Assembly: GCA_947462335.1 (NCBI GenBank)
Contig: OX381705.1
Location: forward strand, 43,538,175 to 43,602,174
Reading direction: 5' to 3'
DNA from: Harmothoe impar
Taxonomy: Eukaryota; Annelida; Polychaeta; Phyllodocida; Polynoidae
Length of the DNA: 64,000 nucleotides
The notes beneath the pieces are model-generated. The model saw only the letters and a program-made list of their open reading frames with translations, was not told the DNA's origin and did no database searches. A program made the translations under genes and the position numbers. Each line of letters starts with the position of its first letter. The stretch's first letter is position 1. Positions 1 to 62,657 of this stretch are shown piece after piece.

Positions 1-26
1 CTAATACTAGTACCAGCACAGCTACA

Positions 27-1503: not shown

Positions 1504-1511
1504 GTGAGCAG

Positions 1512-3401
1512 GTGAGTTTCCCCTTATTGAATAATACTGTTCACAATTATAGAGCTGGTAACATTGCATTTTCTGTCAATTCTTGGATGTCAGTAACTAG
1601 GGATCCTTGGGTTATTGGCATGGTAAGAGGGGTTACCATACCTTTGGTGGAGGTACCCTACCAAGAGAGGGTACCTCATCCATATAAACTCTCACCAGAA
1701 GAGAGGGTTGCCATGACAGGGGAGGTGCAGAAATTGAAAGAGAAAGGGGTGGTTATACCAGTAGATGACGTTGAAGGACAATTTGTCTCATATGTATTTT
1801 TGAGACCTAAGCCTAACGGTCAGTTTAGGATCATTCTTGATCTCACCCTGATGAACAAACAAGTAGAGTATGAGCATTTTAAAATGGCGAGCCTACAGAC
1901 AGCACTGGATATGATGAGACCAGGCTGCTGGATGGGGTCAGTAGATCTCAAAGATGCCTACTATTCTGTGGCCATAGATGAAAATTTTAGGAAGTTCCTA
2001 AGATTCTCATGGGAAGGCCAGTTATACGAGTTTGTAGGAATGCCTAACGGGTTAGCTTGTGCCCCTAGAATTTTCACAAAGGTTTTAACACCGGTCTATG
2101 CCAGGCTCAGACAAAAGGGCCACAACTTGTTCCCTTACATTGATGATTCTTTTGTTATGGCCTCTAACAAAGAACAGTGTAGGGAATCAACGCATAAATT
2201 ATGTGAGTCGCTAGACAAGCTGGGGTTTGTAGTGCACCCAGAGAAGTCAGTTCTGGAGCCAAACCACAAAATAGTTTTCCTGGGATTTTGGCTGGATTCA
2301 GTGTCTATGACAGTTTCTCCAACATTGGAGAAAATAGAGAAACTGGATAGGGCTGCTAGACAAGTACTGGCACAGAATTGGGTAAGAATCAGAGAGGTAG
2401 CAGGGCTGGTAGGTCTGATGGTGGCATATACACCAGCCACAGAATATGGTGGTGGCCATAGGAAAGGACTGGAGCTAGATAAAAACTGGGCCTTGCAGGA
2501 GAATAAAGGAGATTTTGATGCATGGATGACAATAGGCCCCAGGGGTAAAGCAGATATAGAGTGGTGGTTGAACCATTTCCCGACTGCGTCGAGAAGAATT
2601 GACAAAGGTAACCCAGAAATCATCATGATGACTGATGCCTCTGAGGAAGGATGGGGTGCCCATAGGGGCACACTATCTACCGGTGGCAGGTTTAAGAAGG
2701 ATGAAATAGGCTACCACATTAACATCCAAGAGCTGAGAGCAATCAAACTGGGGCTCAAGAGCTTGGTACCAGAAGTAGGAGTGCATGTGAAAATATTCAC
2801 TGACAATACTACAGCGTTGGCATACACCAAGAACATGGGCGGTATCCGCTCTATTCTCTGTGATGATCAAGCTAGGCTGATTTGGGAGTGGGCAGAATCC
2901 AGGCGGAGCTGGCTCACCATAGCACATATTCCGGGGATAAAGAATGTGTTGGCAGATTACAAATCAAGAAAATTTTCTGATGACCTAGAATGGGAATTGG
3001 GACCTAAACTGTTTAAACAGATCTGCAAGAAATGGGGGACTCCTGAAGTAGATTTGTTTGCCTCTAGGATTAATAACAAACTAGACATGTTTGTATCATT
3101 AGACCCTGAACCAGAGGCCTGTGCAGTGGATGCATTCTCATTAGACTGGTCTAATGGTTTCCTCTACGTTTTTCCACCTTTCAGTCTAGTCGCGAGGGTT
3201 CTCCAGAAGTTGGAGAGGGACCAGGCCCGGGCCATCCTGGTGGTGCCAGAATGGCGAGGCCAATCCTGGTACGCAGCTCTTCAACGAGCAGAGGAGAGGA
3301 TGATCTTCGCCCCCCGAAAGAACAACCTCTTCCCGCACGGCCGCCCCCAAAATTCGCTCAATCTAGGGTCCCTAAGGCTGGGGGCTTATGCTTTCTGTTA
3401 A
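1512..3401 (+). CDS. DIRS-like reverse transcriptase - RNase H - methyltransferase-like polyprotein
   Basis: Uninterrupted 629-codon frame. Reverse transcriptase occupies about residues 60-270, with the motif-A-like DLKDAYYSV and the catalytic box YIDD near residue 209. RNase H follows at about residues 370-480 (MTDASEEGWGAH, then FTDNTTALAYT and KNVLADYKSR). The last 120 residues (EVDLFASRINN, AVDAFSLDW, then FPPFSL) match the DAM-like methyltransferase module that DIRS-type elements carry between RNase H and the recombinase. The tracked start is a GTG; the first ATG is at about 1587, so translation may begin there or continue from Gag by frameshift. The 3' end overlaps the recombinase gene by 151 nt in another frame. 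No lesion is visible, so this copy looks young. Confidence 0.88.
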   Translation: MSFPLLNNTVHNYRAGNIAFSVNSWMSVTRDPWVIGMVRGVTIPLVEVPYQERVPHPYKLSPEERVAMTGEVQKLKEKGVVIPVDDVEGQFVSYVFLRPKPNGQFRIILDLTLMNKQVEYEHFKMASLQTALDMMRPGCWMGSVDLKDAYYSVAIDENFRKFLRFSWEGQLYEFVGMPNGLACAPRIFTKVLTPVYARLRQKGHNLFPYIDDSFVMASNKEQCRESTHKLCESLDKLGFVVHPEKSVLEPNHKIVFLGFWLDSVSMTVSPTLEKIEKLDRAARQVLAQNWVRIREVAGLVGLMVAYTPATEYGGGHRKGLELDKNWALQENKGDFDAWMTIGPRGKADIEWWLNHFPTASRRIDKGNPEIIMMTDASEEGWGAHRGTLSTGGRFKKDEIGYHINIQELRAIKLGLKSLVPEVGVHVKIFTDNTTALAYTKNMGGIRSILCDDQARLIWEWAESRRSWLTIAHIPGIKNVLADYKSRKFSDDLEWELGPKLFKQICKKWGTPEVDLFASRINNKLDMFVSLDPEPEACAVDAFSLDWSNGFLYVFPPFSLVARVLQKLERDQARAILVVPEWRGQSWYAALQRAEERMIFAPRKNNLFPHGRPQNSLNLGSLRLGAYAFC

Positions 3402-4363
3402 ACAAGAAATTAATATCAGAGGGTTATGATTTGGAGACCGTGGAGCTCATCCTAAACGCGTTTAGGGATTCCACGGCCACCACTTACAGCACTTACCTGC
3501 GTAAGTGGTGCGTCTTCTGCTTAGACAGGGACATTGAGGTGTTTTCCCCCAGTCTCCCCCAGGTGTGCCTCTTTTTGAAAGAGCTAGCCAAGGAAGGTTT
3601 AGGGTATTCAGCCCTAAACATTGCCCGTTCGGCTTTGTCAGCGATACTGACCACCTTTAACGGGGAGACTGTGGGGAAACACCAAAATGTCCGTTGGCTA
3701 TTAAAGGGCCAGTATGAGAGAAAACCGTCCGGGGCCAAACACACAACCTTTTGGGACGTGTCTTTGGTCCTGAACTTGTTTAAAGAGTGGGGGAAAAATG
3801 AGGACCTGTCATGGAAACAGATCACACTCAAGCTAACTACTCTCCTCCTACTGGTCACAGGTAGAAGAGGTCAGCAGATCATCAACCTGGACATCAATGG
3901 TCTTGAGTTCAAAGAAGTAGTGATTTTCAAAATGTTCAAGCTAATGAAGCATAACCGGCCTGGGGACCCGTTAGATACCATTCTGATACGTGCATTCCCC
4001 GAAGATAAGCGGCTGTGCGTAGTAGAGGCACTTAAGGTTTACCTTCAGCGAACTAAAAATGTCAGGAAATTCTCTCAATTACTGCTGTCGTATATTTCTC
4101 CACATGAACCTATTGAGAGGAGTTCTCTTGCCCGTTGGACGCTAGCCACGATGCGTCTGGCGGGGATTGACACTACCGAGTATGGAGCTCACTCTACGCG
4201 GGGGGCTGCTGCGTCAGCTGCAAAAGCAGTGGGCCTCAATGTCAATTTGATCCTTAAGAATGCTGGCTGGAAAGGAGAAGACTCCTTTGCCCGTTTCTAT
4301 GACAAGCGTGTAGAGTGGGATACAACCTCGGTGGGTCGGGGCTTATTATTAGCCTTGGGGTAG
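3251..4363 (+). CDS. DIRS-like tyrosine recombinase
   Basis: Intact 370-residue frame. The N-terminal helical (core-binding) part includes AFRDSTATTYSTYLRKW. The catalytic part has the expected R-H-R-Y set: Arg205/206 in TGRRGQQIINLD, His314 and Arg317 in HSTRGAAASA, and Tyr350 in FARFYDKR, with a Trp in NAGWKG at the usual second-His position. Tyrosine recombinases in DIRS elements integrate a circular DNA intermediate instead of using a DDE integrase, so these elements lack LTRs and target duplications. The gene overlaps the 3' end of the RT-RH-MT frame, which is the usual compact arrangement. All catalytic residues are present, so the protein could be functional. Confidence 0.9.
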   Translation: MARPILVRSSSTSRGEDDLRPPKEQPLPARPPPKFAQSRVPKAGGLCFLLNKKLISEGYDLETVELILNAFRDSTATTYSTYLRKWCVFCLDRDIEVFSPSLPQVCLFLKELAKEGLGYSALNIARSALSAILTTFNGETVGKHQNVRWLLKGQYERKPSGAKHTTFWDVSLVLNLFKEWGKNEDLSWKQITLKLTTLLLLVTGRRGQQIINLDINGLEFKEVVIFKMFKLMKHNRPGDPLDTILIRAFPEDKRLCVVEALKVYLQRTKNVRKFSQLLLSYISPHEPIERSSLARWTLATMRLAGIDTTEYGAHSTRGAAASAAKAVGLNVNLILKNAGWKGEDSFARFYDKRVEWDTTSVGRGLLLALG

Positions 4364-36861: not shown

Positions 36862-38646
36862 CTACTTATTTTCTATTAAGCGATCTGGCCTCTTAACACT
36901 TCTGGTTGAGCGGCGAAGTTCAGGTGTGGCAGAAGCTGCTGATTGACTAGTCCCTGAATCAACAGAACCAGAAGCACCAGGTGTCTCTACAGGACCTGGC
37001 ATTGGACTCGCACAATATGTTTGCGGGTCTCGAACTGGTTTCTTGGGTGTCACAGTTGGAGTTGGGATAGCTGGTTGGAGATGTTGTGTGTTTCTCCTAG
37101 TTGTTCCAGTCTCTGTCTGCACGACATACAACCTTGGTGTGTCAGCTGCACTGCTAACAACTCCCGGCCGATTCCAGCCCTTCTGGTTGTCGTCCTTCAT
37201 GACGATGCTCTCGCCCGGCTGCAATGGCTGCAGGGGACGAACGCCATGTCGATGATTATAATGCTCTGCATAAGTCTCCTTAGTTGCCTGATCTCTGTGA
37301 AGAACAGCCTCTCGTTCAGGCCACCTAGGCTCTAGGGTTGCTGGAAGCACTGGCAGGGTTGTCTGGATATGACGACCCAACATAAGCTTAGATGGGCTAC
37401 ATCCAGTTGCTGCTATCGGTGTGTCTCTGTAAACCATCAGACCTAACCAAGGGTCTGTTTGGCTGAGAATCCACTTGGCAGTCTGTACGGCATGCTCTAC
37501 CTCCCCATTTGCATTCGGGAGATATGGGCTAGAGGTGATATGACTAAACCTGTGCTTTAGCCCCAGCTTCTTGAAGTCACCAGAGATAAACTGGGGACCA
37601 TTGTCTGAAACCACTTCCTTTGGTGACCCAAACCTAGCAAACACATCCTCCATTCTACTCGTTACTGACTCTGCTGTTGTCCTATAAAGGCGTGATACCT
37701 CAATCCACCTTGAGTAATAGTCAACTAACACAAGGTAATCCTTGCCTTTGAACTGACAGAGATCTGCCCCAACCCTCTGCCATGGACCTTGAGGCAAAGG
37801 TGTAGGAAGCAGTGGCTCCTTTCGTTAGGTTGGTCTGGCTATCTGGCAGGGCTCACATGCGCTAACGATCGTTTTTACATCCGTAGTGAGGCCTGGCCAC
37901 CAAACTCCAAGTCTGGCCCTCTCTAGACACTTTGTAAGGCCTTGGTGTCCGTCATGAATCCTGCTAAGGATCTCATGTCTCATGACAACTGGAATCACAA
38001 TCCTGTTGCCAAACACCAATAGACCGTCTGTTACAGATAACATCGCTCTATGAGCATACAACTCGTGTAAACTCTCGGGCACATCCTTCTGATATTTTGG
38101 CCATCCTGTCAGGGTAAAGACTATCGCTGCTTGTAACACTGAGTCATTCTGCGTCGCTGCTCTCGGATCGTCTCTTTTCTGAGGTGATGCAGGGAACCCA
38201 GCTACGACGTATTGAACATAGAGATCAACATCCTCAGCTGTGCTGCTTAAGGCATTTGTTGACATCGGACTCCTGGATAGGGCATCAGAAACATACATGT
38301 CCTTCCCAGGTATGTACTTCGCTTGCGCGTTGTACCTCATGAGTCTCATGAGAAGTCTCTGGCACCTCAGCGGCACATTATCCAGGTCTCTAGAATTTAT
38401 GAGAGGTACTAGCGGTTTGTGATCAGTCTCCAGTGTGAAGGATTCCAATCCGCATAGGAACCGGTCTACTCCATCTAGAACCTCCATCATTTTTCGCATG
38501 AATATTTCTGGCGCTGACGTGATACCAAAAGGTGAGCGCTTGAAACAGTACCTCCCAAATGGGGTTAAGAACGTTGTCAGTTCCTGGCTTTCCACATCAA
38601 GTGGGATTTGGTAGAATCCACTGGCAGCATCTAAACATGAGAACAT
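36862..38646 (-). pseudogene. Gypsy-type pol remnant: truncated RT/RNase H plus integrase, RT active site deleted
   Basis: On the - strand the frame starts abruptly inside RT (FSCLDAASGFYQIPL), runs to EIFMRKMMEVLDGVD, then jumps directly to the RNase H tail RFLCGLESFTLETDHKPLVP. The segment that should hold the YxDD catalytic box and the first RNase H motifs is missing. An integrase zinc-binding region (DGHQGLTKCLER, then CEPCQIARP) is followed by an in-frame TAA at 37825-37827. The integrase core resumes in the same frame (DNGPQF, then NGEVEHAVQT) to 36862. The element is 5'-truncated, internally deleted and stop-containing, so it cannot be autonomous. Its RT relatives are Ty3/gypsy elements of the K02A2.6-like kind. 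Confidence 0.85.
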
Positions 38647-39260
38647 TTCTATACATAATATACTGACCTACTTTAACATCATTTGCATAATTTGCATATT
38701 TTGTGCTCTAAACTATGCTCATAAACTAAATTTCAACTTGTAATCTAGACTTGCAGTACAATTATACAAATTATGCAAATCAGGTAAAATAGGTCCATAT
38801 TAGAATATTAGAATATGGGGCTGCATTTCAATTGAATGTTCAATGTATTCAGAATATGAGAGTCTGCTGTAAAATTTGATACAGAATTTAGAGCTTTTCA
38901 ACTTGACCTAGTTTTTATATAGTCTATAATTGGTTTACCGGTAGGAGTTAAATAAAAGGGCATTGGCGGCCCTATTCTAATTATCATTCTAAATAATATT
39001 ACTATCATAGATCTATCAGTCAACCAGTAGGTTGAGTAGTAATTCTCATATGTAACTGCTATTATGTTAATATAAGTAATATATGAATGAGAAGACACAA
39101 GGCAGGGGTGTGGTGGAAAATGTACAAATATCAGCCTTTTATTACTGAATAGTACCACAAATACATCACAACAAAAGAAGTCACACTCACTCTTTTTCGT
39201 GACACATGTCTCAAGACCCAACATCAGTCTAGCGTCTTCCGGATTGCGAGTGGATAAATT
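38647..39260. repeat. AT-rich interspersed repeat copy
   Basis: The segment 38812-38930 (ATATGGGGCTGCATTTCAA, then TTTAGAGCTTTTCAACTTGA) resembles 63470-63570. ATTATGCAAAT(C/G)AGG at 38775 resembles 44137. One dispersed family probably lies at all three sites. No coding frame is recognised. Confidence 0.45.
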
Positions 39261-43779: not shown

Positions 43780-44285
43780 AGTGGTCTTGTGTAGTGACGT
43801 AACACCTACTGGAAGTCTCCATGATGACGTGACGACCTATGATGTCACGCCCCGGATGATGGCGCCATCTGACAGGGGATGGACGAACTACCTCCCACGA
43901 CGATGGCGCCACCAGTGGTCAGCCCTGGAACAAGTCGTTCCCGGTGAGGGAACTGCCACGCCTTCCTGGAATTATACTGGTATAGGGTTATACAGTGTAA
44001 AATGGCCTTACAATTCAAAATTCCAGGTGCCTCACATTTTTTACTGAAAAGGCACCTATCAAAGTATATGGTGACTGGGTGTTATGCATTTTAAACAAGT
44101 CAAACTTGTGATCTAGATTTTGAGCACAAATATGAAAATTATGCAAATGAGGTTGAAAATAGCGGCAACCAGCTAGAGACGTGTGAGAGGGGGCTCCCGG
44201 GGTTTTGAGCAGAAAACATAGTCAAACTTATCGGAGAGGACTGGAACTTCACAATAGTTGGTACATAAACATACCTAGAATCGCC
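43780..44285. other. Junction of Ngaro-like element and LINE; presumed LINE 5' region
   Basis: No coding frame. Holds a copy of the dispersed repeat seen at 38.65-38.93 and 63.47-63.66 kb (TTCCAGGTGCCTCACATTTT at 44020; ATTATGCAAATGAGG at 44137). The exact LINE 5' end is not visible. Confidence 0.4.
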
Positions 44286-45681
44286 ATGGCAGTACAAGGG
44301 CGTGGAGGAGGAGGAAGGAGACAACCGCCGAGGCTCTCAAAAGAAGACGACATTCTGGCCCTGGACGCTAGCCCGGCAGATGTCATATCGGCAGTCAACG
44401 CCTTGGCAAGGCGAATGACAACACAGGAAAAAGCTACTGCTGGCATATTGGAAACCTTAGCCACGATCAACGCGACTGCTACAAAGAATGCCGAGACCTT
44501 TGAGGGGATCCACGCTAGAGGTGACTGAAAAGGCCTTCAAAAAACATGCCGAGGTGTCAAGCGCACAGACTCGTATGTTGACAGCGCACCAGACGAGGTT
44601 TGACAGGATGGACGAGGAATGTAAAAAGCAAGTCGTAATTCTTGAAGGGGTCAAGGAAAATGAGGGTGAAAATCTTCATACAGTTGTCAGTGGGTTATTT
44701 AATGACACACAAGTTTGCTGGAACATCGAACAGGTTGATTCAATTACGAGAATAGGGAAACTCCAGATGCGAAACAACGGGCGAGGGCCAAACCGGAACC
44801 AAGATGGCGGCGCCCAGGCCAGACAAGGAGACGATCTACAACGGCAGCGAAGACAAAACTGCAGGGCGATAAAGGTAGTATTCTCAAAGAAGCACCTCAA
44901 ATCGGAGCTCATGAAGGGACTGAAATTCCTAAAGGGCAAGGTACAGTGGTTAAACGTGTCGGTGGGGGACGAGCTGAATGAACGAGAGAGAAGAGAATTC
45001 ATCGACTTACGCTCTATCTACTTCCTAGCTAAGGAATGTGGGTATGACACACGCTTACGTCAAAGAGCAGTAATCATAGAGAAGGTGAGCTACCCACACT
45101 ATAGGCTGAACGATTTGCCCCAGGAGGACTTAAATTTGGAAGCAGCAACCCAGGTGTACACAGACGACGGACTTATGTTTAGGTCGAGCCATCACAGGTT
45201 CTCAAACCTATATCCCTGTAACATCAAATACCAAGACACCGACTACAATTGTGTAGAACAAGCTTTCCAAGCCACCAGAGCAAAGGAATGTGGTAGCAGA
45301 AAAACACACGACGAGATTATGATCCAAGAATGCCCCTACGAAATGATGACCATCGGTAAGCAGGTAAAGGACACAACAGCGTGGGCCAAAATGGCTGAAA
45401 AAACTCTATTTGACATCAACAAGATCAAATTCTCCAACCCTGATTTTGAAGAATACCTACAGAGCACAGAGACACTAAGGTTATACGAGGCCAGCCTGCA
45501 CCCAGTATGGGGGTGTGGCTACCACCTTGGACAGGCAGCTCAGTGCGTCGACAGAAACATCCCCGGCGCCAACCTACATGGCAAGATACTTGAAAGAATT
45601 CGAGCAGAGCAACGTCCTGAGGTTCAAGAGGAAGAAGAGGCTCCCGAAAATCCAGCACAACAAGACGCAGACGGCACTTAA
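44286..45681 (+). pseudogene. LINE ORF1: coiled coil - RNA-binding core - NADAR (YbiA-like) domain; one frameshift
   Basis: ATG at 44286 (MAVQGRGGGGRRQPP) starts a ~80-codon basic then helical N-terminal part that hits TGA at 44526-44528. The protein continues in the next frame (about 44510-45681), so one single-base indel is present. The continuation has an L1-ORF1-like RNA-binding core (VVILEGVKENEGENLH, then VDSITRIGK, AIKVVFSKKHLK, VQWLNVSVGDELN). From 45172 to about 45606, in the same frame, is a ~145-residue NADAR domain: FSNLYPCNIKYQDTDYNCVE leading into QAFQ, MTIGKQVKDTTAWAKM, LQSTETLRLYEAS, VWGCGYH, and NLHGKILERIR. The conserved Glu (codon 45256) and the Trp of WGxG (45508) are kept. 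YbiA-type NADAR enzymes cleave N-glycosidic bonds, and some remove ADP-ribose from nucleic acid. A role here is inference. Confidence 0.85.
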
Positions 45682-46705
45682 AACTACCACCACATAGCCC
45701 AGAGACTGTCATATTTCATATTTTATTATATTTTCTTCCTTGTAAAACGCCTAACTATATTTTGGGTCAAAATGATTGTAATTCCTAGTGTATCTTTTTT
45801 ATTTTTTTCATTGAAAATTTAATTCTAGTTTGTTTGATTAATACCGGTAATATATTTGTAAAGATCATATCTTACTTTTGGACTAAGCAAATAACATTAT
45901 AGAATCATGGGAAATAGCCTGTAGTATAGGCTACATATACCGATACTGAAACATGTTCAAATAAATTCTTGACATAATGAAATCTATGTATAAAATGAAA
46001 TCATGTAGACATTTCAGGCTTAAATACCACACGTTTTTCTACTCTAATTTGTATATTTGGTACTTTATATACCGGTATTCATGGTCTTTGAAAACTGTTG
46101 ACGTATGAAAAATGATTTCTGATTTGTATTAACATTGTCATGCCTTGTACTATAATTTGAATCTCAGAACTGATTTATACCGGTACACACACAGTCTACG
46201 AAAGACTTCTGAAATATTGAAATAATGTACAAATGTATTATTTGAAGAGGTATTTTGATTTGTGTTGACAATTGTTACATGTAGCACTTGACTCGGTTTC
46301 TGAATCGACTTATACCGGTACATTGTACATTGTACTGTAATAATGTATACATGTATTTTTGATAACTTACTTTTGATTCTAGTATCAGACCAGTATCAGT
46401 TACTATTTTTATGTTCTCAAGAGAGATCTGGTCCCACCGAGAAAATAAGTAAATGGAATTTCTACGGTGTAAGCAAAACAAAGGGGACCCTACTTTTTCA
46501 TCTCCTAGAGTGAAATTTTACATGGGTGGCCATCAGAGCCTTACGCCTTTGTCAGGGGGGTATGGTTTTTTTTGGGGATATCTTTTATATTTTTTGATCA
46601 CTCGAAACAGGCAAAATGTATGTAGTTTGTATGTTAATGTGGTACAGGGACGTGTAGGCTGGGTCATTTTGAGCAAAAACTGGAATTCAAGTTTCTCCCA
46701 AGATA
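45682..46705 (+). other. LINE inter-ORF spacer with ~110-135-bp diverged repeats
   Basis: AT-rich, no coding frame. TATACCGGTA occurs at about 46068, 46176 and 46311 within longer related units (GATTTGT(A/G)TT(A/G)ACA, then CTGA(A)T(C)..TTATACCGGTAC), implying two to three diverged tandem units. A spacer of 1 kb between LINE ORFs is long and may hold an internal promoter or a translation-reinitiation region. Confidence 0.5.
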
Positions 46706-48776
46706 ATGGGTGAATGGCCAAATTTCAGAAAGGGGTTCTCCATGGTGCATCTAAATGCTAGAAGTGTTAGAAATAAGCAAACTAATATTAGACTAGAATT
46801 ACTAAAAAAAGACATTGATATTATTTTGTTTTCCGAAACATGGCTAAATGAAGACGATGAGGATAATTTGTATACTTTCCCACGCTACAACATGTATAGG
46901 TTGGGCAGGATTAGTATTTACCGAGGCGGTGGACTTTGTGCACATGTAGATGAAGGGCTCTCATGCTCAGCTGATAAATTCAGTCACTTGAACCGAACAA
47001 ATGTGGACATAGAAATCCAATGGTTGTTATCTTTTAAAGGCACAGAAAAAAAGTCCATTGTATGTAATGTATACAGACCACCTGGAGGTTCCATAGTAAA
47101 TTTCTGCGACACGATTAAGGCATTGTTACTTCAAGTTCAAAATATACAAAACTATGATTTATTTATCCTTGGTGATTTTAATGTGAATATCCTGGAAAAC
47201 AGTGCTCAAAAAGACATGCTTTATGAATGTTTTGACCAATTTAATTGCAGACAATTGGTGCACTCGATCACCACTACCTCAGGTTCAAACACAGGGATAG
47301 ATCTTATTTTCACTAACTGTATGGAGATCGCCTCCAGTGGACCACTGAACGTACATTTAAGCGACCATCTACCCATTCATGTTATAAAAAAACAAATGTA
47401 TGAAAAGCCCACATTCAGGTCATTCACCGGTAGGTCATACAGAAATTATGACAAGGTCAAATATTTACAAAGCATAGAGGCGTGTGACTGGTCATACTTT
47501 GATGAATGTGAAGATCCATCGGAATGTTGGGAAGTGTATGAGAACATGCTGAAAAGGATGTTAGACGTGTCTTGTCCAGTGAAACCCTTCAAAGTTAAAG
47601 ATAAAGCAGACCCCTGGATGACCAACTATCTAATAGAAAGATCAAACGACAAAAATAATCTCCTACTAGAAGCAAGAAATTCAACATGTATATTAACTTG
47701 GCATCAAGCTAGAAATTTAAGAAATGAAGTAAATTTAGAATTAGATGTTGCAAAAAAGAAATACTATAATGAACTTTCAGAAAATAATTTAAAAGATTCA
47801 AAAAAGTTCTGGTCTATTCTAAAAGAAATAATCCCTTCGAGCAAATCTGGCACTAAACAAATTAATTTAGTAGATGAATCCACAAACCCAGTACCAGGGG
47901 AAGACACGTCAGCATATATAAATAAGTTCTTCGCTCAGATAGGTTCAAAATTAGCTGAAAAGCATACTGAGCCGTTTGAATTTATGGGTTCTAGATGTCA
48001 AGAAAACATGAGTGATCTGACCTTTAGTGACGAAGACATTGTTAAGTGTGTACGAGAGCTAGATGCCTCTAAGTCTTCAGCCATACAGTACTTACCCACA
48101 TCTATATTTAAAGATGCAATTCTGCATAATCCAGCTCGTTTTATTAAGATAATACGCTTGTGTTTGAGAAATGATGTTTTTCCAGACAAATGGAAAGTCG
48201 CAACGGTCACTCCTCTACCCAAGGGGGGGGGGGACATGACTAATGTATCTAATTATAGGCCTATAAGTGTTCTTCCTGCCCCAGGAAAGATCTTTGAGAG
48301 ACTCATCCACACGTCAATGTCCACCCACCTAGAAAAAAACAAAATTTTGACGGAAAACCAGAGCGGGTATCAAAAAGGCAAATCAACTTTAGACTCAATC
48401 TCAAATCTGATCGATGATATTTTAATAAATAGAAATAAGGGAAACATTAGTCTGGCAGCCTTCATCGACATCAAGAAGGCTTTTGATTCAGTAAATTACT
48501 CAATATTACTAAAGAAATTAGAAGAATATGGGATAAGAAATAAAAACTACCGGTTAATAGAAAATTACTTAACAAATCAAAAACAATGTACAGTCGCAAA
48601 TAATATTAAATCTACCCTTCTTCCCTTGACGTGTGGCGTTCCTCAGGGGTCTATCCTAGGCCCCCTATTTTTTCTCTTGTATATAAATGATTGTATAAAA
48701 AAATGATGACACCCACAAAACTGTATTATATGCGGATGACTCCGTCCTATATGTAACTGGCAAGGACAGGGATGTA

Positions 48777-49555
48777 CAGTAAAATCTCGTTATAAGGAGC
48801 GCCTTTTGGCAAGGCAAATTTGCTCGTTGTAACCAACTTCCTTGTAACCGATTTTGTTAAATAATACATTAAAATTTGGCTATAATGAGCATGGATGTAA
48901 TGAGCACTGGCTTATAACGGGCATCTCATGTCATACTAATACTCTGTTCTTCTCTTATATATTTCTATAGTAAAGAAACTTTGTTATAGTGAACCAGACT
49001 TGTTCTAAGAAACCCCCTCCCCCCTGCCCCTTCCCACCTCACAGGTCCGTACCTGCCCCCCCCCCCCTCCCCTGGGCAAGCCACATCACAAGAAGAAGCC
49101 ATGACATAGTCCCCCGCCCACCCCCCCTCCCCCCTGCCCCTTCCCACCTTACAGGTCCGTTCCTGCCCCCCCCCCTCCCCTGGGCAAGCCACATCACAAG
49201 AAGAAGCCATGACATAGTCCCCTGCCCCCCCCCCCTTCCCCCCTGCCCCTTCCCACCTCACAGGTCCGTACCTGCCCCCCCCCCCTCAACTGGGCAAGCC
49301 ACATCACAAGAAGAAGCCGTGACATAGTCCCCGCCCCCCCCCCACCCCTAACGAATTCACACCTCACAGGTCCATACCTTCCCTGGGCCGGCCGTCTCAA
49401 AAAGTGCTCCTTAAAAACGATTTTTCATGAGAATTGCTCCTTATATCAGGGTTATTTTACTATAGAAATGTATGAAAAAGATATTGGCAGGGCAAATGTG
49501 CTCCTTATAACCGTCTGCTCCTTATATCCGTCCTCCTTATAACGAGATTATACTG
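48777..49555. mobile_element. 779-bp Tc1/mariner-type MITE inserted at TA inside LINE ORF2
   Basis: Inverted ends CAGTAAAATCTCGTTATAAG and CTTATAACGAGATTATACTG (one or two differences) are flanked by TA on both sides (48775-48776, 49556-49557). Taking the element and one TA out leaves the RT reading frame continuous, which proves insertion. The interior carries an array of three to four ~95-bp units (CCTTCCCACCT(C/T)ACAGGTCCG, C-run, GGGCAAGCCACATCACAAGA, then CATGACATAGTCCCC). Confidence 0.93.
49010..49380. repeat. ~95-bp tandem repeat with long C runs inside the MITE
   Basis: Three full units and one partial, each with a C-tract of 9-13 bp. Open frames across it on both strands (Pro- or Gly-rich) are composition artefacts. 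Confidence 0.9.
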
Positions 49556-50441
49556 TACTAGCAAACAGACTAGAGCAAGCTCTATCTACTTTTGTTCATT
49601 GGACCAAGATTAATAAGCTAACGATTAATGAGTCTAAAACTAAGGTGATGACCTTCGCGTCCCGCAAAAAGTTAAACAAATTAAATAAGCCAAAAATAGC
49701 TATGAATAATGTGGAGTTAAAATGTGTAATTTCCTATAAGTATTTAGGCATGATTCTTGACGAAGAATTGAATTTCAATATTCATGTGAGAAATATGATA
49801 AATAATCTCTGATTTAAATCTATTTTACTGTATAAAGTGAGAGACTTCATGGCCGAAACAGCACTTATGAAGGTGTACGAGTCACATGTACTACCGGTAA
49901 TGGATTACTGTGATATATTGTATACGGGTTGTAACACGGATATACAAGCCCAGCTACAACGAGTTCAAAACAAATGTATAAAAACCTGTAAGTCAATGCA
50001 TATACTAACACCCACAGAAGTAGTCCACGCAAAGGCTAATTTGCCAACCCTTGTAAATAGAAGAAGGTATCATGCAAAGCTATATGCTCATAAAAGGGCC
50101 TCTCAAGAAAAATTTGTAAGACAACATGTACGCGAAACACGCCAATCTGTAGCTCCAGTATTAAAATATGACACTCCAAAATGCAGGTCATACGAGTACA
50201 GTCCACAAGTAGTATGTGCACGGGAATGAAACTCCTTAGACACAGACTTTAGAAATAAAATTGTGTTTGAAGAATTCAAAAACCTAGCAAAAAAGGACCT
50301 AGTCAGCAGCATTCCTGTATTAGAAGAAGACGTAGCCTAAGAGTACTTTAAGTATTTTAAATGGGGGGGGGGGGGGGTTGTGAGCAGAGATTTAAAGGTA
50401 AAATATACATTGCCGCTGTGACATTTTCCAAACATTACTTG

Positions 50442-50878
50442 TGTAATAAACGATACTTTGTCTCTTTATGATATTGGTAGAGTATCAATTAAAGAACAAA
50501 GTCGACACAGTTCGGATCAAGTGTTACAGGTTGCAAATCGGGTTTATTCAGAAAACCTAGACAAGCAGTATCTATGTGTGCGAACTCCCTATAGAGTTCG
50601 GAACGGGTCAGTAGGCTAATCAGCCGTATTGATCACAGGGTCTCCTTGCCAGCGTGGCTCAGAGTAACCGACGAGTACCGTCAGATGCTGGGTATATATA
50701 GGCAGCCAGCCTGCGCGCGCACACGCAGACCGGAAGCCTATAGCGACCTCTGTCCATACCCCAAGCCCGGGGTAGGTGCTGCCACCTACCGTCGGACTGA
50801 AGGGTTCGGACTGAGCTCGCAACACAACATCCAACAGCACTCGTCATATAACATACCCGTATAACCCTAGCCCCTACA
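50442..50878 (-). repeat. Gypsy element 3' LTR
   Basis: 437 bp, TGTAATAAAC...CCCCTACA on the + strand. Read on the - strand it has a TATATATA box (about 50693-50700), then AATAAA near 50541-50547. It includes a GGTAGGTG-CTG-CCACCTACC hairpin (about 50770-50790) missing from the solo LTR at 42036. Confidence 0.95.
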
Positions 50879-55738: not shown

Positions 55739-56791
55739 CTAGGTTACGGCCCCTCTAGCCACCAGCCTTGGGCTTCGCCGAACGGGTTTCCCGTCCACCT
55801 CTCGTAACCTGGCCGAAGGACACTCGTTCTTAACTAAAACTCCAGCCTTGATTTTAGTTTTCCGTGCCCTTCTTCCTTCGCCTGCCGAGACTTTCTTTTT
55901 CACGGTCTTCCGGAGCTTCTTTTGTACCACTCTCTTAGGGGTATCCACTGACACCCCTTCCAAAGGTACAAATTTAGCCTCCGAAGTTCCCTTCTCCACC
56001 TCCGTTTCCGGGGTGAGCTCCCTTCCAGCCCAAGTACGCAACCGAGCCACATGGCTCGTCCGGATGCGTCCTGCTTCGGACTGAATCAACACAGTCGTTT
56101 GACTGATACATTTAACCACGGTGTGTGGTCCATCCCAGTTATTCGCCAGCTTGACGTTGCAGAGCGGTTCGTGTAGGCGGATCACTCTATCCCCCACTAC
56201 GAATCGTCGCAACTTCAATCCGGTGTCGTAACCCACCTTCTGCCAATTCGCAGCTTTGAGCAAATGAGCCCTAACTGTTTCGTAGGCAAATTTGAACCTC
56301 TCTCGTAGAGATTCCACAAATAGCACCGTACATGGTGCTTCCGGACTGATCCCTACCACCCCGAATACCAAATCCGCCGGCATGATCAAGTCCTCTCCGA
56401 ACACCAAGAGGTTCGGTGTGCAATTTGTCGAAGTGTGGACCGTATTGTTATACGCATGCACCACAAATTCGCATTGATCATCCCAATCATCCATATGGGA
56501 GTTCACTAATGGCTTCAAAACCTGGATCAAGGTCCGATTGAACCGCTCCACCTGCCCGTCGGACTGTGGCTGGTACGGATTGGTCCGAGTTTTGCATATA
56601 GCCAACTGATGGCACATAGCTGTCCATAGTTTGGACTCAAATTCTCTCCCTTGATCGCTATGTAACATCAAAGGAGCCCCCAAATGGAGGATCCACCCCT
56701 TCACCAATGCTTCCGCACAAGTAGCAGCGGTATGATCCTCGAGTGGGTACACTCGGGTGTATTTCGTATAGTAGTCCGAGACCACCATCAT
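55739..56791 (-). pseudogene. Gypsy integrase catalytic core and C-terminal domain
   Basis: Continues in frame from the RNase H/integrase frame after a TGA (56792-56794). It has VVSDYYTKYTRVYPL (first catalytic Asp upstream at the RIAVDIISG motif), HSDQGREFESKLW (second Asp) and QSDGQVERFNRTL (Glu), then a C-terminal domain (VGDRVIRLHEP, then WDGPHTVVKCIS) and a basic tail. The TGA falls inside the core, just after the PTPKGNT segment, and would prevent a full integrase unless read through. A CGA-to-TGA CpG transition is a plausible origin. Confidence 0.85.
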
Positions 56792-57865
56792 TCACGTATT
56801 ACCTTTTGGAGTTGGTTTAACTCCACTGATAATGTCCACAGCTATTCGAGCAAATCTCACTCCGAATAGCTCTTGTTGCAGTGGCAATTTTCCTAATCCA
56901 GGACCAGGTTTGCCTAAACAACAGGCCGGACAGGTCTCGATCCACCTTAAAAGGTCGCCTGACATGCCGGGCCAGTAGTATCTCCGACTCAGCCTTTCCA
57001 ACGAGCGTTTCTTTCCGAAATGCCCACTAGTGGAATGGCCGTGGCAGTAGTACAGGATGTCTTTCCTCATAGCAGCAGGGATTACCATTTGTAACACCCT
57101 CCGCTTTCCGGGACAAGTCTTCCACCTGCACAACAACGAGTCTCGGACCTCCAGTTCGTGGAACTGAGCCAAGAAACGTCGCATTTCGCGGTTTTCCAGT
57201 GATATTTCGGGTCTCACTGGACAGACCCCAGTAGGGACAAGTTCCCTCAGTCGTGCTATGGTAGGATCGGCCATCTGGTACGTCCTTATAGTGTCGGTGG
57301 ACCAATCCAACAGGTTTTGCAACAACCCATCATAAGGCAAACGCACACTTGCTACCACAGCATTGTGAGCACCACAATCCCCACACTCCGGACGCACACA
57401 ACGGCGTACCGGACGTCTACTCAGACAGTCAGCATTAATATGCTTCGTGCCCGCTCGGTGCTGGATATGAGAGTTTTCCAGTCCGAACTCGCTGAGGTGA
57501 TTCAACCACCGACCAATCATTCCCTCGGCGTCCTTAAAATTAAGGAGCCATCTCAAGGCCGAATGATCGGTACGGAGTGTGAAATTTCCTCCATATAAGA
57601 AGTGCCGAAACTTCTTCGTGTACACCACTACTGCGAGCAGCTCTCGCTTGGTAGTACAATAATTTCTCTGTGCCTTGTTCATACTGTTACTAGCGAACGC
57701 CAGCGGGACCTCTACTCCGTCCTGGATTTGGGACAATGCGGCCCCGATGCTCTCATTGCTCGCATCAGTGTCAAGGATGAAATGCCCCTTCTCCGTAGGG
57801 TATCTCAGCACCGGGGTGGTTCGGAACAACGCCTTAATCTCTTTGAAGGCTTCATTCTGTTCCAT
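56792..57865 (-). pseudogene. Gypsy RNase H and integrase zinc-binding domain
   Basis: RNase H: FILDTDASNESIGAALSQI, FRHFLYGGNFTLRTDHSALR, and INADCLSRRP. Integrase HHCC domain: HGHSTSGHFGKKRSLERLSR and CPACCLGKPG, then the start of the core. It is joined to the RT frame only after a 1-nt change in an A7 run at about 57866-57872 (an extra A relative to the frame needed). It ends at an in-frame TGA. Confidence 0.88.
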
Positions 57866-59963
57866 CTTTTTTTCTCCCCGGAGTCCAATGGCTCAACCGT
57901 TGTAATGGCTGAGACACCCTAGAGAATCCGGGGATGAAGTCCCTGTAATAGGAACAGAACCCTAAAAAGGATCTGATATCCTTTGGTCCTTTTGGAACTT
58001 CCCAAGTCTCCACAGTCTCCAACTTAGCCGGATCAGCCTGAACACCTTCGGTGGAGATGATCCGGCCCAAATAGACCATGGACTTCCGAAAAAGTTCACA
58101 TTTCTTCGGCTTTAATGTCAAGCCATTGGACCGAATTCGTTCCAAAACCTCTCCGAGGTTCAACGCACACTCTTCAAAAGTCTTGCCAAAGACAATGACG
58201 TCATCCAAGTATACCAAACACTTGCGCCACAACAGATCACTCAGAAGAGTTTCCATCATAGCCTCAAAAGTGGCCGGGGCGTTGCACAACCCGAAGGGCA
58301 TCAGCTCAAACTGATACAGTCCAATGTGACTTGTAAAAGCCGTTTTCTCCTTATCCTCCTCCTTCATCCCGATCTGCCAATATCCGGACTGCAAATCAAG
58401 GGTGCAGAACCATTGGTTCCCACCCAAGGAGTCCAGAGTCTCATCAATCCGGGGGAGAGGATATGCATTTTTCTTGGTTACCCCATTCAGGCGCCTATAG
58501 TCGATACAAAATCGGATAGACCCGTCCTTCTTAGTAACCATCTGGACCGGGCTGGACCAGGGGCTAGTGCTAGGCACGATCACCTTTTGTTCCAACATGG
58601 TCTTCACTTGTTCCTCTACCACCGCTTTCTTACCCAAAGGCAAGCGTCGGTAAGGCATCTTGAAAGGCTGTGCATCACCCGTATTGATAGAATGCAACAC
58701 TTTGTCGGTTCGGCCCAAAGGCTCCCCCTCCACCTGCCATGCATCCTGATACTTCACTACCAGCCTCCTTAGGGAATCGAGATCCCTCCGATCCGTCAAA
58801 TCCGTTTCGGAGATCATTTTCTCAAGTCCCTTACTCAGAACGGTCGGAGAAGGGTCACCCTTCATGCTCACCTGTCCAGCAGGCATCACTGCCTCACTGG
58901 TGAACACCTTCCCCAGTATTGTATCTTTCCTTAGATACTTCGGTTCCAACCCGGGGTTAGAGACCGGCACTACAGTCCAAGCACCATCACCCACTAGGGT
59001 ATCCATGCCCGTCAAACCGATACTACCCAACATGGCCACATCCGGCTCCACAACTGCCTCTTCCTCTCTCCTAAGCCCCTTGCTTCGGACCAGCACGACA
59101 CACGTCTGTCCGGGAGGAATCTTCACAGTTTGGACCACCGTTGCCACTGTCGACACTTGTCGGAGCACACATTGCTCTACCGCACGGTAAGGGTGCTCTA
59201 TCAGGAGTACCCCTGTACCCGGATTCAGGACCGCGTCATACAACGCCGAAAAATCCAATCCGAGTATACCGTCGTCTGCAATATCCGCAATGGTGGGAGA
59301 AGCCACATACTCCTTCCCTCCAATTCGGAGCGGTATGAACGCGCGCCCATACGTCTGCATACTTGATCCATCGGCCGAACAGGCGTTTACCCTCGTTTTG
59401 AAGTTATCACGACTATCCGGCATAAGAGCATAGAAGTTAGAGGAGATAAAGGAGTGGCTAGCTCCCGTATCTACTAAAAATTCGCCCGCTCTACCGGCCA
59501 CAGTAACAGACACATACCACCGCCTCCCCCCCAGCGGAGACGGGTTTACAGTAAAGCGTTTAAAATCCTTCGGAGCAGCCAAATCAAGGCCATGTTTCTT
59601 CAAATGGTCGAAACATGGATGATCCGGGGAAAGCTGTGTACTCCCTACCCACACGGTGTCTGTGACAGCCGCAACTTCCTCGTTCCGATCCGTAATGGGC
59701 CTCCCTGCCTCATTGCCGGGCAACTGTTGGACTGGAATGTTAACCAGGCCGGCATCCGAGCCCCTCAAGCTCGAAGCCACCCCTGATTCCCTTCCTGCCT
59801 TCGGAATTTCACTAGGCTCTACCTCTCTGGTATGTTGGCGTACATCATATGCAGGGGTCGTCCGCTCGCCTTCTCGGACCACCCCCTCTAGTTTCCCTCC
59901 TTCCCGGGAACTTTCGGAGTCAGAGCCGTACACTCCGCAGCAAAGTGACCGATCTCCAGGCAC
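57852..59963 (-). CDS. Gypsy protease and reverse transcriptase
   Basis: Pol's first frame, entered from Gag by a -1 shift (codons GGG AAA CTA). Protease: FLVDTGASHSFIS with ILGLDFS later. RT: VQMVTKKDGSIRFCIDYRRL, TLDLQSGYWQIGM (motif A), FELMPFGLCNAPATFE, and LVYLDDVIVFG (catalytic YLDD), then the connection region YLGRIISTEGVQ and IRSFLGFCSYYRDFIPGFS. These are standard Ty3/gypsy blocks. The frame ends early at 57852 because of the A-run indel before RNase H. Confidence 0.93.
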   Translation of the reverse strand: MPGDRSLCCGVYGSDSESSREGGKLEGVVREGERTTPAYDVRQHTREVEPSEIPKAGRESGVASSLRGSDAGLVNIPVQQLPGNEAGRPITDRNEEVAAVTDTVWVGSTQLSPDHPCFDHLKKHGLDLAAPKDFKRFTVNPSPLGGRRWYVSVTVAGRAGEFLVDTGASHSFISSNFYALMPDSRDNFKTRVNACSADGSSMQTYGRAFIPLRIGGKEYVASPTIADIADDGILGLDFSALYDAVLNPGTGVLLIEHPYRAVEQCVLRQVSTVATVVQTVKIPPGQTCVVLVRSKGLRREEEAVVEPDVAMLGSIGLTGMDTLVGDGAWTVVPVSNPGLEPKYLRKDTILGKVFTSEAVMPAGQVSMKGDPSPTVLSKGLEKMISETDLTDRRDLDSLRRLVVKYQDAWQVEGEPLGRTDKVLHSINTGDAQPFKMPYRRLPLGKKAVVEEQVKTMLEQKVIVPSTSPWSSPVQMVTKKDGSIRFCIDYRRLNGVTKKNAYPLPRIDETLDSLGGNQWFCTLDLQSGYWQIGMKEEDKEKTAFTSHIGLYQFELMPFGLCNAPATFEAMMETLLSDLLWRKCLVYLDDVIVFGKTFEECALNLGEVLERIRSNGLTLKPKKCELFRKSMVYLGRIISTEGVQADPAKLETVETWEVPKGPKDIRSFLGFCSYYRDFIPGFSRVSQPLQRLSHWTPGRKKDGTE

Positions 59964-62461
59964 CTATAGCACTTGGCGGTCCGCCGATTGATCTTCCTCC
60001 GGTTAGGCTGTGTAGCCCCCTGAATGGAAGTCGTCATCTTCTCAAACAGCGATGTGAAAAACGCTGCGTCCATTATCGGAGCTTTTGGGTCCGATGATTC
60101 CTTCTTCGGAGGAGGGTTTCCACCCCCTTCCGGCTTCCTATTTTTCCACGGCGTTTTAGAGGAATTCCCATTCCTCTTAAACTGAGCCGCAGAAGCTATC
60201 GCCCCCTCTTCCTCACTGCCCGAACCATCAGACTGCTCCGGAGAACACTCTATAATGGCCGAGGCCCGGGTGGGCACCCGGTCCCCTAACAGTGACTTCT
60301 TGAGAGCATGTATGTCGATGGCCTTAAAAAGGTCATCTAATGACGTATCAGCTCTCCAGGTATCATACACCACATGTTGTATTTCTGGGTCCCTCAGTCC
60401 AGCAACAAACTGAGAGAACAATTCCTTAGAGAATAAGGCATCATGGATTCCTGAAGCTGGATGTACCTTCTTCAGGAGTCTCATCAGTGCAAGTCCGAAA
60501 ACCCTCGGGGCCTCGTGCTTGCCTTGCACTCGCTTCTTAAAAGCGACCATCGGGTCAATCCGAGCGGAGTCTCCGTATAGGATAGTTCCGATCTCTACCA
60601 GTTGTTTGAAAGTGCCGCGGGGTCCGCATTCATCTTTCCACTGCTCCACGGCCATCAGGCCATCTCCCAAGCGCAATCCCTTACAGACATACGGAATTGC
60701 ATCCTGTTGATCCCACCCACTGAGGTTGATGTCCTCAACGGTGGCTCCCAACCACTCTTCCCAAGAGTTTTTCTGCCAGTAGGGAAAAGGCTCGCTAGCA
60801 ATGCGTCTAGCAGCGTTGGATGAACCCCTAATTTTAGAGGTTATCGCCAGGCATTTGGAAATGGAAGCCGAGGCGTCCTTTTCTGTACCCACGTTGTGCA
60901 ATCCGATCCCAGCTATTGCTGGGTTTGTATCGTACAACTCTTGCAATTCTGTACTCAGAATTGTTCTCCTTGGAGCCCTCCTCGGACTCTTTGTGCCCGG
61001 AGTCGTCCCCGGAGTAGCGCCTCTGGTAGGCACGTTATTCTGCCTCTCCAGATAGGTCTGGTAGGTACCATACGACACCAAATCCTTAGTGGGGTCCACA
61101 CCTTGACTGAACCACCAATTCTTCTCCTGGTCAGTCATATACTGACACTGCTGGGCCAGAGCAAGCAATCGCTGATGCGCCGCTTTCTCTTTCTCCAGTT
61201 CCTTGGCCTGTCTATCAGCCTCCTCCTCTTGCTGTGCCTCCGCCAATTTAGCTTTTGCAGCTTCCCCGGCCGCTCGGAGCCCTTCTTGTCGAGCTCTCAG
61301 AACCGCCGCCTCCTGCTCTGCTAATTCCTCAGCGAGGGCTGCATTTTCCTTCATGCGTTCCTGTTGCTGCTCAAGAGCAGCCTGCTGCTTGCGATACACA
61401 TCTCGCCTCTCCAATTCCAAGTTTTTCTGTTCATTGAACAGTATGTTTGCTTGGCATTCTCGCCATTGCGACAAACTCGAGGGAGTTAAGTCGGTCTTGG
61501 CCGCCTTATCTTGTTCGGATGCTTTCTTCAAGCGTTCCGAATCCAGTTGCTGCTCATCCAGTTTCAACTGAGAACGTGGACTCCGCACCAACTCCGATAA
61601 TGACCTTCCCCTGCCCGCCGTGTTTACACCCGTCGGAGCCGAAAAGACCTGCTTCGGAATTGGACGGATACCACTGATACCCACCCTAGGTGAGTAATCA
61701 CTCGCCCTACCTCTACCCCTTGCTCGGCCAACCTTTAGTGGTCGTCCTGGCGTTGAAGTAGACAAGGCACCTTCTACAGTCATCCCACGTCCCATAGGAA
61801 GATTTGGGGTGTCTGTAAAACTCCTGTAATGAGGACCTTTCGGACTGTCATTATCAGCGGAAGCATACGAGGTACTGCTATCCTGTATACTCTCCCTGGT
61901 CTCTGACAAAAATTTCTCCAAAGAAGTTCTTTTTGCCTTCAGAATGTCACATTCTGACAGTAGACTTCGGCGAGCCTCCCGTAAGTCTTCAGTGTCCCGA
62001 ACAAGTTCTGATCGGGTCTCCTCTGCTTCATGGATGACGGCATCTCGGGCCGCACAAATCTGATTCAGATCAGTGTTTGCCTGAACAAAGTCGGAACGGA
62101 GTCCTTGTAGATCAGCCTGTTTCTGATCGAACTCCACTCGAACCCTGCTAAGTGATTGCACCAGCTTCTCGTTCTCCTCCAACAGAGTTGAAAGCCTTGC
62201 GTCTTTCTCCTTGATTTTGGAAGCTCTATGTGTGACTGCACCTTCCAATGCAATCAGACTGCTTTTCCATTCATTCGACTGTTTCTGAATGGTCAACAAC
62301 TCCATTTGGGCCATTTGCACACGCTCCTGTATTCTGGCCTCTCTCATGTCGTCGAAACGACGTTCCTCCAAGATGGTAGCCCTCCGTGGATTCGGAGCGG
62401 CTGATCTTGACCCACCAACGTTGAACATTGACAGGCTCATTTCATCTAATGAGTAATTCAT
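59888..62461 (-). CDS. Gypsy Gag with CCHC zinc knuckle
   Basis: First ATG at 62461 (MNYSLDEMSLSMFNVGG) gives ~857 codons. The N-terminal third is a long coiled coil (REARIQERVQMAQMELLTIQ, then KLVQSLSRVRVEFDQKQAD). A second Glu/Ala-rich coil lies at about residues 360-440, then a capsid-like helical region (WEEWLGATVEDINLSG, then LFSQFVAGLRDPEIQ), and at the C-terminus a zinc knuckle C-x2-C-x4-H-x4-C (CYRCLEIGHFAAEC). Coding-like sequence continues upstream of the ATG to about 62618 without another ATG, so a non-AUG or spliced start is possible. The frame is intact and twice the length of a typical gypsy Gag. Confidence 0.9.
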   Translation of the reverse strand: MNYSLDEMSLSMFNVGGSRSAAPNPRRATILEERRFDDMREARIQERVQMAQMELLTIQKQSNEWKSSLIALEGAVTHRASKIKEKDARLSTLLEENEKLVQSLSRVRVEFDQKQADLQGLRSDFVQANTDLNQICAARDAVIHEAEETRSELVRDTEDLREARRSLLSECDILKAKRTSLEKFLSETRESIQDSSTSYASADNDSPKGPHYRSFTDTPNLPMGRGMTVEGALSTSTPGRPLKVGRARGRGRASDYSPRVGISGIRPIPKQVFSAPTGVNTAGRGRSLSELVRSPRSQLKLDEQQLDSERLKKASEQDKAAKTDLTPSSLSQWRECQANILFNEQKNLELERRDVYRKQQAALEQQQERMKENAALAEELAEQEAAVLRARQEGLRAAGEAAKAKLAEAQQEEEADRQAKELEKEKAAHQRLLALAQQCQYMTDQEKNWWFSQGVDPTKDLVSYGTYQTYLERQNNVPTRGATPGTTPGTKSPRRAPRRTILSTELQELYDTNPAIAGIGLHNVGTEKDASASISKCLAITSKIRGSSNAARRIASEPFPYWQKNSWEEWLGATVEDINLSGWDQQDAIPYVCKGLRLGDGLMAVEQWKDECGPRGTFKQLVEIGTILYGDSARIDPMVAFKKRVQGKHEAPRVFGLALMRLLKKVHPASGIHDALFSKELFSQFVAGLRDPEIQHVVYDTWRADTSLDDLFKAIDIHALKKSLLGDRVPTRASAIIECSPEQSDGSGSEEEGAIASAAQFKRNGNSSKTPWKNRKPEGGGNPPPKKESSDPKAPIMDAAFFTSLFEKMTTSIQGATQPNRRKINRRTAKCYRCLEIGHFAAECTALTPKVPGKEGN
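59891..59897 (-). promoter_or_regulatory. -1 programmed frameshift heptamer GGGAAAC at the gag-pol junction
   Basis: Reads G GGA AAC in the Gag frame, immediately before the Gag stop TAG (59888-59890). The -1 frame opens into pol, overlapping Gag by 76 nt. GGGAAAC is a canonical X XXY YYZ slippery site used by retroviruses such as type D simian retroviruses. Confidence 0.85.
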
Positions 62462-62657
62462 TATTTCGGGACCCTTGTATCCCAAAAATGCGCTTGTCCT
62501 GGATGGAACATTCGCACTCCTGCGGGTATCTGCCTCCTTAATGGCATCTAACCCCTCCGGTGATAAGGCTGACGCCTCATCGGGAGACCTCGCTGCTCCG
62601 TCCAGAGCAGGAGGTCTGCGCTACTGCACAGGCTAACCTGCGTTTCACTCAGAACTG

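Follow-up and report, generated by a model that had tools for sequence, protein, structure and literature searches.

A NADAR domain at the C-terminus of L1-type ORF1 proteins in LINE retrotransposons of the annelid Harmothoe impar

Results

A LINE copy whose ORF1 ends in a NADAR domain

The window, by which we mean the whole 64,000-nucleotide stretch of Harmothoe impar DNA analysed here (contig OX381705.1, positions 43,538,175 to 43,602,174), carries on its forward strand one copy of an APE-type non-LTR retrotransposon (LINE). Homology to other copies in the genome can be traced from 44155 to 50442 and spans an ORF1, in which an RNA-binding core is followed by a NADAR domain, and an ORF2 with an AP-like endonuclease and a reverse transcriptase (RT) (Table 1). 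Both ORF2 enzymes are matched by Pfam models in the open frame 46673-48706 (+), in agreement with the initial annotation, which had placed an ORF2 on the same strand after ORF1. At the 5' end, blastn homology starts at 44154-44156 in 10 of the 18 close copies (L034-L051).

Table 1. Features of the window LINE copy, in window positions. Residue counts cover LINE domains with 125 aa or more in a single open frame; broken and partial domains are excluded, which favours conservation.
Feature	Position	Strand	Evidence or remark
Probable 5' leader	44155-44285	+	Inferred from the start of blastn homology to other copies
ORF1 N-terminus, 80 codons, ATG to stop	44286-44528	+	ORF list and sequence; out of frame with the rest of ORF1
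ORF1 main open frame, 406 codons, stop to stop	44461-45681	+	ORF list, Pfam scan
Coiled-coil helix, ORF1 residues 17-55	44509-44625	+	AlphaFold2 model; LINE-1 ORF1p trimer structure match
RRM and CTD core, L1-ORF1 type, residues ~57-224	44629-45132	+	
NADAR domain	45187-45609	+	Pfam, residues 243-383; structure match, residues 225-390
Glu266, equivalent to PnNADAR Glu43 (distal ribose)	45256-45258	+	Glu in 51/52 LINE domains
Arg273, equivalent to PnNADAR Lys50 (pyrophosphate, adenine)	45277-45279	+	Lys or Arg in 51/52 LINE domains
Glu343, equivalent to PnNADAR Glu125 (distal ribose)	45487-45489	+	52/52 LINE domains
His347, at the place of PnNADAR Asp130	45499-45501	+	Lineage hallmark EAS-x-HPxWG
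ORF2 part 1, with AP-like endonuclease and the beginning of RT	46706-48766	+	Pfam; homology to L053 and L057
Sequence interrupting ORF2, ~790 bp	48767-49553	+	Absent from L053, where the two flanks almost adjoin in the alignment
ORF2 part 2, remainder of RT plus C-terminal region in broken frames	49554-50442	+	Homology; ORFs 49543-49812 and 49813-50229

This copy is dead, with a frame break between the ORF1 N-terminus and the remainder and with an interrupted ORF2. In other copies, for example L034 and L035, this N-terminus shares one frame with the remainder of ORF1. The initial annotation described the NADAR domain as continuous with the ORF1 core, and a single open frame does contain both; the first 80 ORF1 codons are read in another frame. 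The sequence interrupting ORF2 contains C-rich repeats with 88-base units, with a spacing of about 106-110 bases at 49007-49390.

Other retroelement sequences are found elsewhere in the window. An RT match followed by a tyrosine-recombinase (Phage_integrase) match at 1470-4360 (+) forms a DIRS-like arrangement. An LTR-retrotransposon pol region with RT and integrase matches, Gypsy-like by reading, lies at 36865-38667 (-), and another pol region that reads as Gypsy-like, with RT, integrase and aspartic protease matches, lies at 55742-59963 (-), together with a zinc-knuckle ORF at 59891-62620.

The window ORF1 has the coiled coil, RRM and CTD of a type II (L1-type) ORF1, as seen from a PDB profile search, the AlphaFold2 model and structure matches, among which those to the whole LINE-1 ORF1p trimer have a large rmsd (6.3-8.8). 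Neither a Pfam RRM nor a transposase-22 model was matched in this ORF1 at E-values up to 1. Against PDB, the single ORF1 sequence gave no match; an ORF1 profile did, with tropomyosin-like matches added by coiled-coil bias. A weak Pfam match to DUF6859 (0.012) falls below the cut-off of that model.

NADAR-bearing copies are dispersed and carry ORF1 and ORF2 in cis

A search of the genome (1.51 Gb, 736 contigs) with the window ORF1 gave 3515 first-look candidates, of which 102 places on many contigs were scored. All 102, the window included, extend to query position 381 or beyond and so contain NADAR sequence; in-frame stops occur in nine. A second search, with the core only (44617-45168), was meant to avoid favouring NADAR-bearing copies, and 150 of its 2032 candidates were scored. 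From these, 20 matches absent from the list of 102 places were chosen as a worst case, mostly with short frames, and 640 bases past the core were read. The NADAR domain was complete or mostly so in 14, some of them with stops or frameshifts, and limited to its first 27-45 positions in three (L061, L063, L065). The remaining three had no recognisable domain: in L069 and L073 the sequence diverges after the domain has begun, and in L059 the break lies inside the core. The initial annotation had named copies lacking the domain as a test of its reading; copies with NADAR deletions do exist, and none of the 20 core-picked copies reads as an intact ORF1 that stops after the core.

Related proteins were also found in ENA. 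P0002-P0004 are 48-51% identical to the window ORF1 over 82-96% of the query; P0002 and P0003 (50-51% over 95-96%) have the same architecture, and P0004 ends abruptly inside the NADAR domain. A one-off capture of the domain was rejected, given its presence in every scored relative, in core-picked copies and in these ENA proteins.

A gap of 1 kb between ORF1 and ORF2, together with the non-L1 look of ORF2, had raised the suspicion of a composite of two nested elements. This was rejected, since sequence like the window ORF2 follows ORF1 in all 18 close copies (68-85% amino acid identity over 32-268 residues per flank), although L045 is missing the first part of ORF2. The more distant copy L052, whose ORF1 is about 50% identical to that of the window in an open frame of 510 codons, has no ORF2 match within its short flank; its ORF2 begins just past the flank, as an uninterrupted frame of 961 codons (L057) that is 68% identical to the window ORF2. 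Uninterrupted ORF1 and ORF2 frames are thus present in cis in two families other than that of the window, namely L052 with L057, and L031, where an ORF1 frame of 431 codons is accompanied by an uninterrupted ORF2 frame of 986 codons. The window element is a dispersed, multicopy LINE with both ORFs in cis.

Fold and active-site residues of the LINE NADAR domain

The NADAR domain had been placed initially at 45172-45606. The translation is open and reads as it was quoted, and the Pfam NADAR model (PF08719) matches with an E-value of 3e-21 and 76.8 bits, against a curated cut-off of 35.1. The predicted structure of the domain (AlphaFold2) has a YbiA-like fold.

Residue conservation was counted in 52 LINE and four host domains out of 77 loci. 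Several of these loci were deliberately chosen to lack NADAR; L031 duplicates L005 and was left out, and the window took the place of L033. Besides the residues in Table 1, the equivalents of Trp89 and Trp133 are present in 52 and 51 of the 52 LINE domains, respectively, half of which (26) had been fetched by NADAR score. In PnNADAR, Glu43 and Glu125 hold the distal ribose (PMC11543638). Lys50 is essential, Arg substituting for it in vitro, and a Lys-to-Arg mutant of the E. coli C7 NADAR retained activity in vitro but lost rescue from DarT1 (PMC11543638). Mutation of the first Glu in the same C7 enzyme (E88A) had only a minor effect in vitro (PMC11543638), so that conservation of this residue alone is no proof of catalysis.

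The Asp130 position, which makes a water-mediated contact with the pyrophosphate in structure 8bau (PMC11543638), divides the LINE domains. Asp is found in 23 of the 26 other LINE domains and His in 25 of the 26 window-type domains, the latter count being partly by construction because the window-type group was split off by a motif (H or N, then P, V/I/L, W). Taken without that split, all 19 aligned window-family copies have His. Asp at this position is not taken here as defining the NADAR family, and the window lineage has His there. The loop between Glu and Trp is one residue shorter in LINE NADARs than in 8bau and the host genes. As we read the alignments, the window lineage has lost Tyr84 and Arg93 of PnNADAR, and in the window Lys stands in place of Arg79. 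Because Asp130 has given way to His and several adenine and pyrophosphate contacts are not kept, the substrate of the window lineage may be other than plain ADP-ribosyl-guanine.

These replacements also bear on a reading of the domain as a non-catalytic module of ORF1p that binds RNA, nucleotides or protein and takes part in assembly, nuclear import or docking on an ADP-ribosylated host protein or nucleic acid. The change from Asp to His and the drifted adenine side fit such a role, as does the first NADAR domain of the nematode protein SNA-3, which is without conserved catalytic residues (PMC9303266). However, each of the two Glu, the basic residue at the Lys50 position and the two Trp is retained by 51 or all of the 52 LINE domains, across divergent families, and we consider a non-catalytic module unlikely, if a serious contender.

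Purifying selection on the NADAR domain

Ratios of dN to dS (Nei-Gojobori) were computed in the window family from 18 copies, using 23 of 153 pairs; in the others, dS was at least 1.2 or undefined. The copies are the top matches by ORF1 similarity, which favours conserved ones, and the pairs are not independent; L051, which lacks a 230-aa open frame, and the distant L052 were excluded. At dS of 0.1-0.5 (five pairs), dN/dS was 0.050 for NADAR, 0.059 for the core and 0.100 for the N-terminus, and at dS of 0.5-1.2 (11 pairs) the values were 0.044, 0.052 and 0.074. Below 0.1 (seven pairs with few changes) the NADAR ratio was 0.18, equal to the core and above the older bands, as expected for decaying insertions. 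Since the banded ratios are as low for NADAR as for the core, the domain is held as tightly as the RNA-binding core. Together with the retention of the key Glu and Trp residues, these low ratios bear out the selection that the initial annotation had proposed to look for.

The banded values were relied on because pooled dN/dS in the window family is saturated at synonymous sites for NADAR. Earlier estimates for NADAR in two other families, A and B, were 0.125 and 0.106; they are biased because the copies were picked by NADAR score, and the N-terminal segments of that comparison include unalignable flanks.

Other NADAR-LINE families and the origin of the fusion

NADAR-bearing ORF1s occur in the genome in further families, which we label A/B (L031), C (L022, L025, L026), D (L024, L027, L029) and E (L028, L030, L054); within NADAR, the LINE families are mostly 27-36% identical to family A. 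Families A, B, C and D and the window family have ORF2s that align with one another, in most cases across hundreds of residues. The family E ORF2 (L054) aligns with human L1 ORF2p over 827-828 residues (~1e-72), whereas L057, the sister of the window ORF2, aligns with it over 222 RT residues only (1.4e-16). Judged by its sister, the window ORF2 falls outside the L1/Tx1 type. With an L1-like ORF2 in family E and little such likeness in L057, these alignments show the NADAR ORF1 paired with two different kinds of ORF2. The endonuclease motif SETWL is suggestive of CR1/L2 (Jockey superfamily). Reticulate evolution of ORF1 has been described in CR1 and L2 LINEs (PMC4120745).

Family C has additional open frames, placed between ORF1 and ORF2 at 3042-3431 (+) of L022 and 577-1275 (+) of L055, and downstream of ORF1 at 3-1013 (-) of L025. 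By eye these frames look SGNH/esterase-like; no Pfam model supports this.

At least four open frames of the host genome encode a stand-alone NADAR (L001-L004; G000 C19, C21); they are 183-268 aa long and score 150-178 bits, above the LINE domains. Three of them lie within about 27 kb on C21. Phylogenetic relations were examined in a quick tree of 168 rows with many weak forks, in which the label 'alone' also covers most capping fusions, and in a careful tree of 40 rows chosen from the 168, 20 of them LINE. The careful tree needs four label changes, and a single origin appears in 0% of 200 bootstrap trees, but a constraint that keeps all 20 LINE rows in one group is not rejected (p-AU 0.143). 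Families C and E stand apart from the window's side of the tree, with weak support. Two database rows labelled LINE, P0011 and P0122, are nearer the host genes in the careful tree; for P0037, P0076 and P0122 this label comes from reading their N-terminal parts only.

A recent capture from host NADAR genes is unsupported, as the LINE NADARs of this genome do not group with host genes in either tree. This, the occurrence of the domain in 102 of 102 scored relatives, the shared architecture of P0002 and P0003 and a dN/dS of about 0.05 all speak against a recent neutral hitch-hiker, taken up by a single copy from a YbiA-like gene of the host, for which the higher-scoring host frames could have been the source; we hold this to be extremely improbable.

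Of 22 database proteins (P0012-P0033), 21 carry NADAR with PF03291, 18 of these also PF03919 or PF01331, and P0030 is listed with NADAR only. Our guess is that they are giant-virus-type capping enzymes; among the papers listed in a literature search, no title dealt with NADAR-capping fusions. Another protein, P0035 (992 aa, no Pfam domain listed), matches the LINE ORF1 profile, on our reading by way of a coil and RRM-like core, and is perhaps a domesticated ORF1-type core.

Discussion

The architecture, the predicted fold, the conserved active-site residues, the purifying selection and the recurrence across LINE families rest on the present analysis; from them we infer an enzymatic activity, its substrate, a host writer and a benefit to transposition. 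L1 ORF1p coats its own RNA as a trimer. If the ORF1p of the window family does likewise, a NADAR domain tethered at its C-terminus would be present all along the retrotransposition RNP. There it would hydrolyse the N-glycosidic bond between ADP-ribose and the guanine base in element RNA or nascent cDNA, and removal would undo a host guanine-directed ADP-ribosylation that otherwise blocks translation or reverse transcription. We give this reading, an L1-type ORF1p with a catalytic NADAR that clears its own RNA or cDNA, a probability of roughly 0.42.

Known NADAR activities are compatible with this proposal. Every NADAR tested is reported to have cleared ADP-ribose from guanosine in RNA, whereas none of the tested macrodomain and ARH enzymes did (PMC11833690), and ADP-ribosyl-guanine in DNA is hydrolysed as well (PMC11543638). 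Guanine is ADP-ribosylated by pierisins and by the clam enzyme CARP-1, and NADARs are stated to be absent from vertebrates (PMC11543638). Invertebrate RNA viruses also encode NADARs (PMC9503650), as does SNA-3, a nematode trans-splicing protein whose function is impaired when the conserved residues are mutated (PMC9303266). By analogy with the C7 mutant that no longer rescued from DarT1, Arg at the Lys50 position in the window lineage would count against a guanine hydrolase.

The initial annotation had suggested that the domain counters a host defence of PARP type. Countering host ADP-ribosylation is retained in our proposal, with guanine-directed ADP-ribosyltransferases as the likelier writers; a PARP-type target is less likely because NADARs are reported to reverse ADP-ribosylation of the guanosine base but to be inactive on phosphate ends of RNA, such as those modified by PARP14 (PMC11833690). 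The same report weighs against an action of the LINE domain at RNA 5' ends or caps, and Pfam scans of LINE ORFs gave no match to a capping domain. A cap role draws on the 21 of 29 ORF1-profile database matches that join NADAR to the cap methyltransferase domain PF03291, 18 of the 21 with another capping domain in addition (PF03919 or PF01331), and on the tie of SNA-3 to the cap-binding complex, CBC-ARS2 (PMC9303266), and we judge it improbable.

The enzyme might instead act on a small molecule, such as cyclic ADP-ribose variants or other NAD-derived immune signals, or on another ribosylated base, the RNP then carrying a means of immune evasion. Soluble ADP-ribose derivatives have been proposed as targets of viral NADARs, phages above all (PMC9503650), and in our alignments the distal-ribose side of the pocket reads as kept and the adenine side as drifted. 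Fusion to a protein that coats one RNA better suits a macromolecular substrate, however, and macromolecular targets are favoured for the NADARs of eukaryotic RNA viruses (PMC9503650); a small-molecule target is in our view rather unlikely.

Extended to the genome, the guanine-directed proposal would mean that LINEs of at least two unlike ORF2 types carry a guanine-ADP-ribosyl hydrolase in ORF1p, and would imply an unrecognised defence of animals against retrotransposons by base ADP-ribosylation of RNA or DNA. We put this forward tentatively, as possible though on the doubtful side. Within it, the window lineage, with His at Asp130 and an altered adenine side, may be a new-substrate version. 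The many LINE NADARs under strong purifying selection, fused to an RNA-binding protein, offer a substrate setting found in nature, and comparing the retrotransposition of elements that have or lack E266 and E343 would be a simple genetic read-out of whether nucleic-acid ADP-ribosylation acts against mobile elements.

Comparison with known systems

With E. coli YbiA (2b3w) and the Phytophthora NADAR (8bau), the window LINE domain shares the predicted fold, the two distal-ribose Glu, both Trp and a basic side chain at the Lys50 position. It differs from YbiA-type enzymes as the C-terminal domain of a retrotransposon RNA-binding protein, with His at Asp130 and a diverged adenine side. With type II ORF1 of L1 the window ORF1 has in common the coiled coil, RRM and CTD, and the structure match to human LINE-1 ORF1p, but it bears an extra C-terminal NADAR, a domain named in none of the five LINE ORF1 types in the available text of PMC4120745. 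The type IV ORF1 of CR1/L2 has likewise gained a hydrolase fold; its enzyme, however, is an unrelated esterase with a suggested membrane role, and is described there without NADAR (PMC4120745).

Retrotransposon-borne NADARs are also known from Gypsy elements of the brown alga Ectocarpus, in Pol (PMC12477816). These are LTR elements, in contrast to the LINE described here, with NADAR N-terminal in Pol and blastp matches almost exclusively bacterial (PMC12477816). The architecture itself, which the initial annotation did not know as a characterised one, had already been mentioned: one sentence of PMC12477816 notes NADAR-like ORF1s, as divergent matches, in several Tx1 LINEs of Crassostrea gigas. 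Among the open-licence papers listed in our searches, we found no other report of NADAR in LINEs, judged by titles, counts and abstract openings. The Crassostrea elements likewise have a YbiA-family NADAR in ORF1 (PMC12477816) but differ from the window element, whose ORF2 is not of L1/Tx1 type; family E (L028, L054), with its L1-like ORF2, may be of the Crassostrea Tx1 kind when compared by description. Beyond that published mention, the present analysis examines the copies, open frames, selection and active-site residues of NADAR-bearing LINEs.
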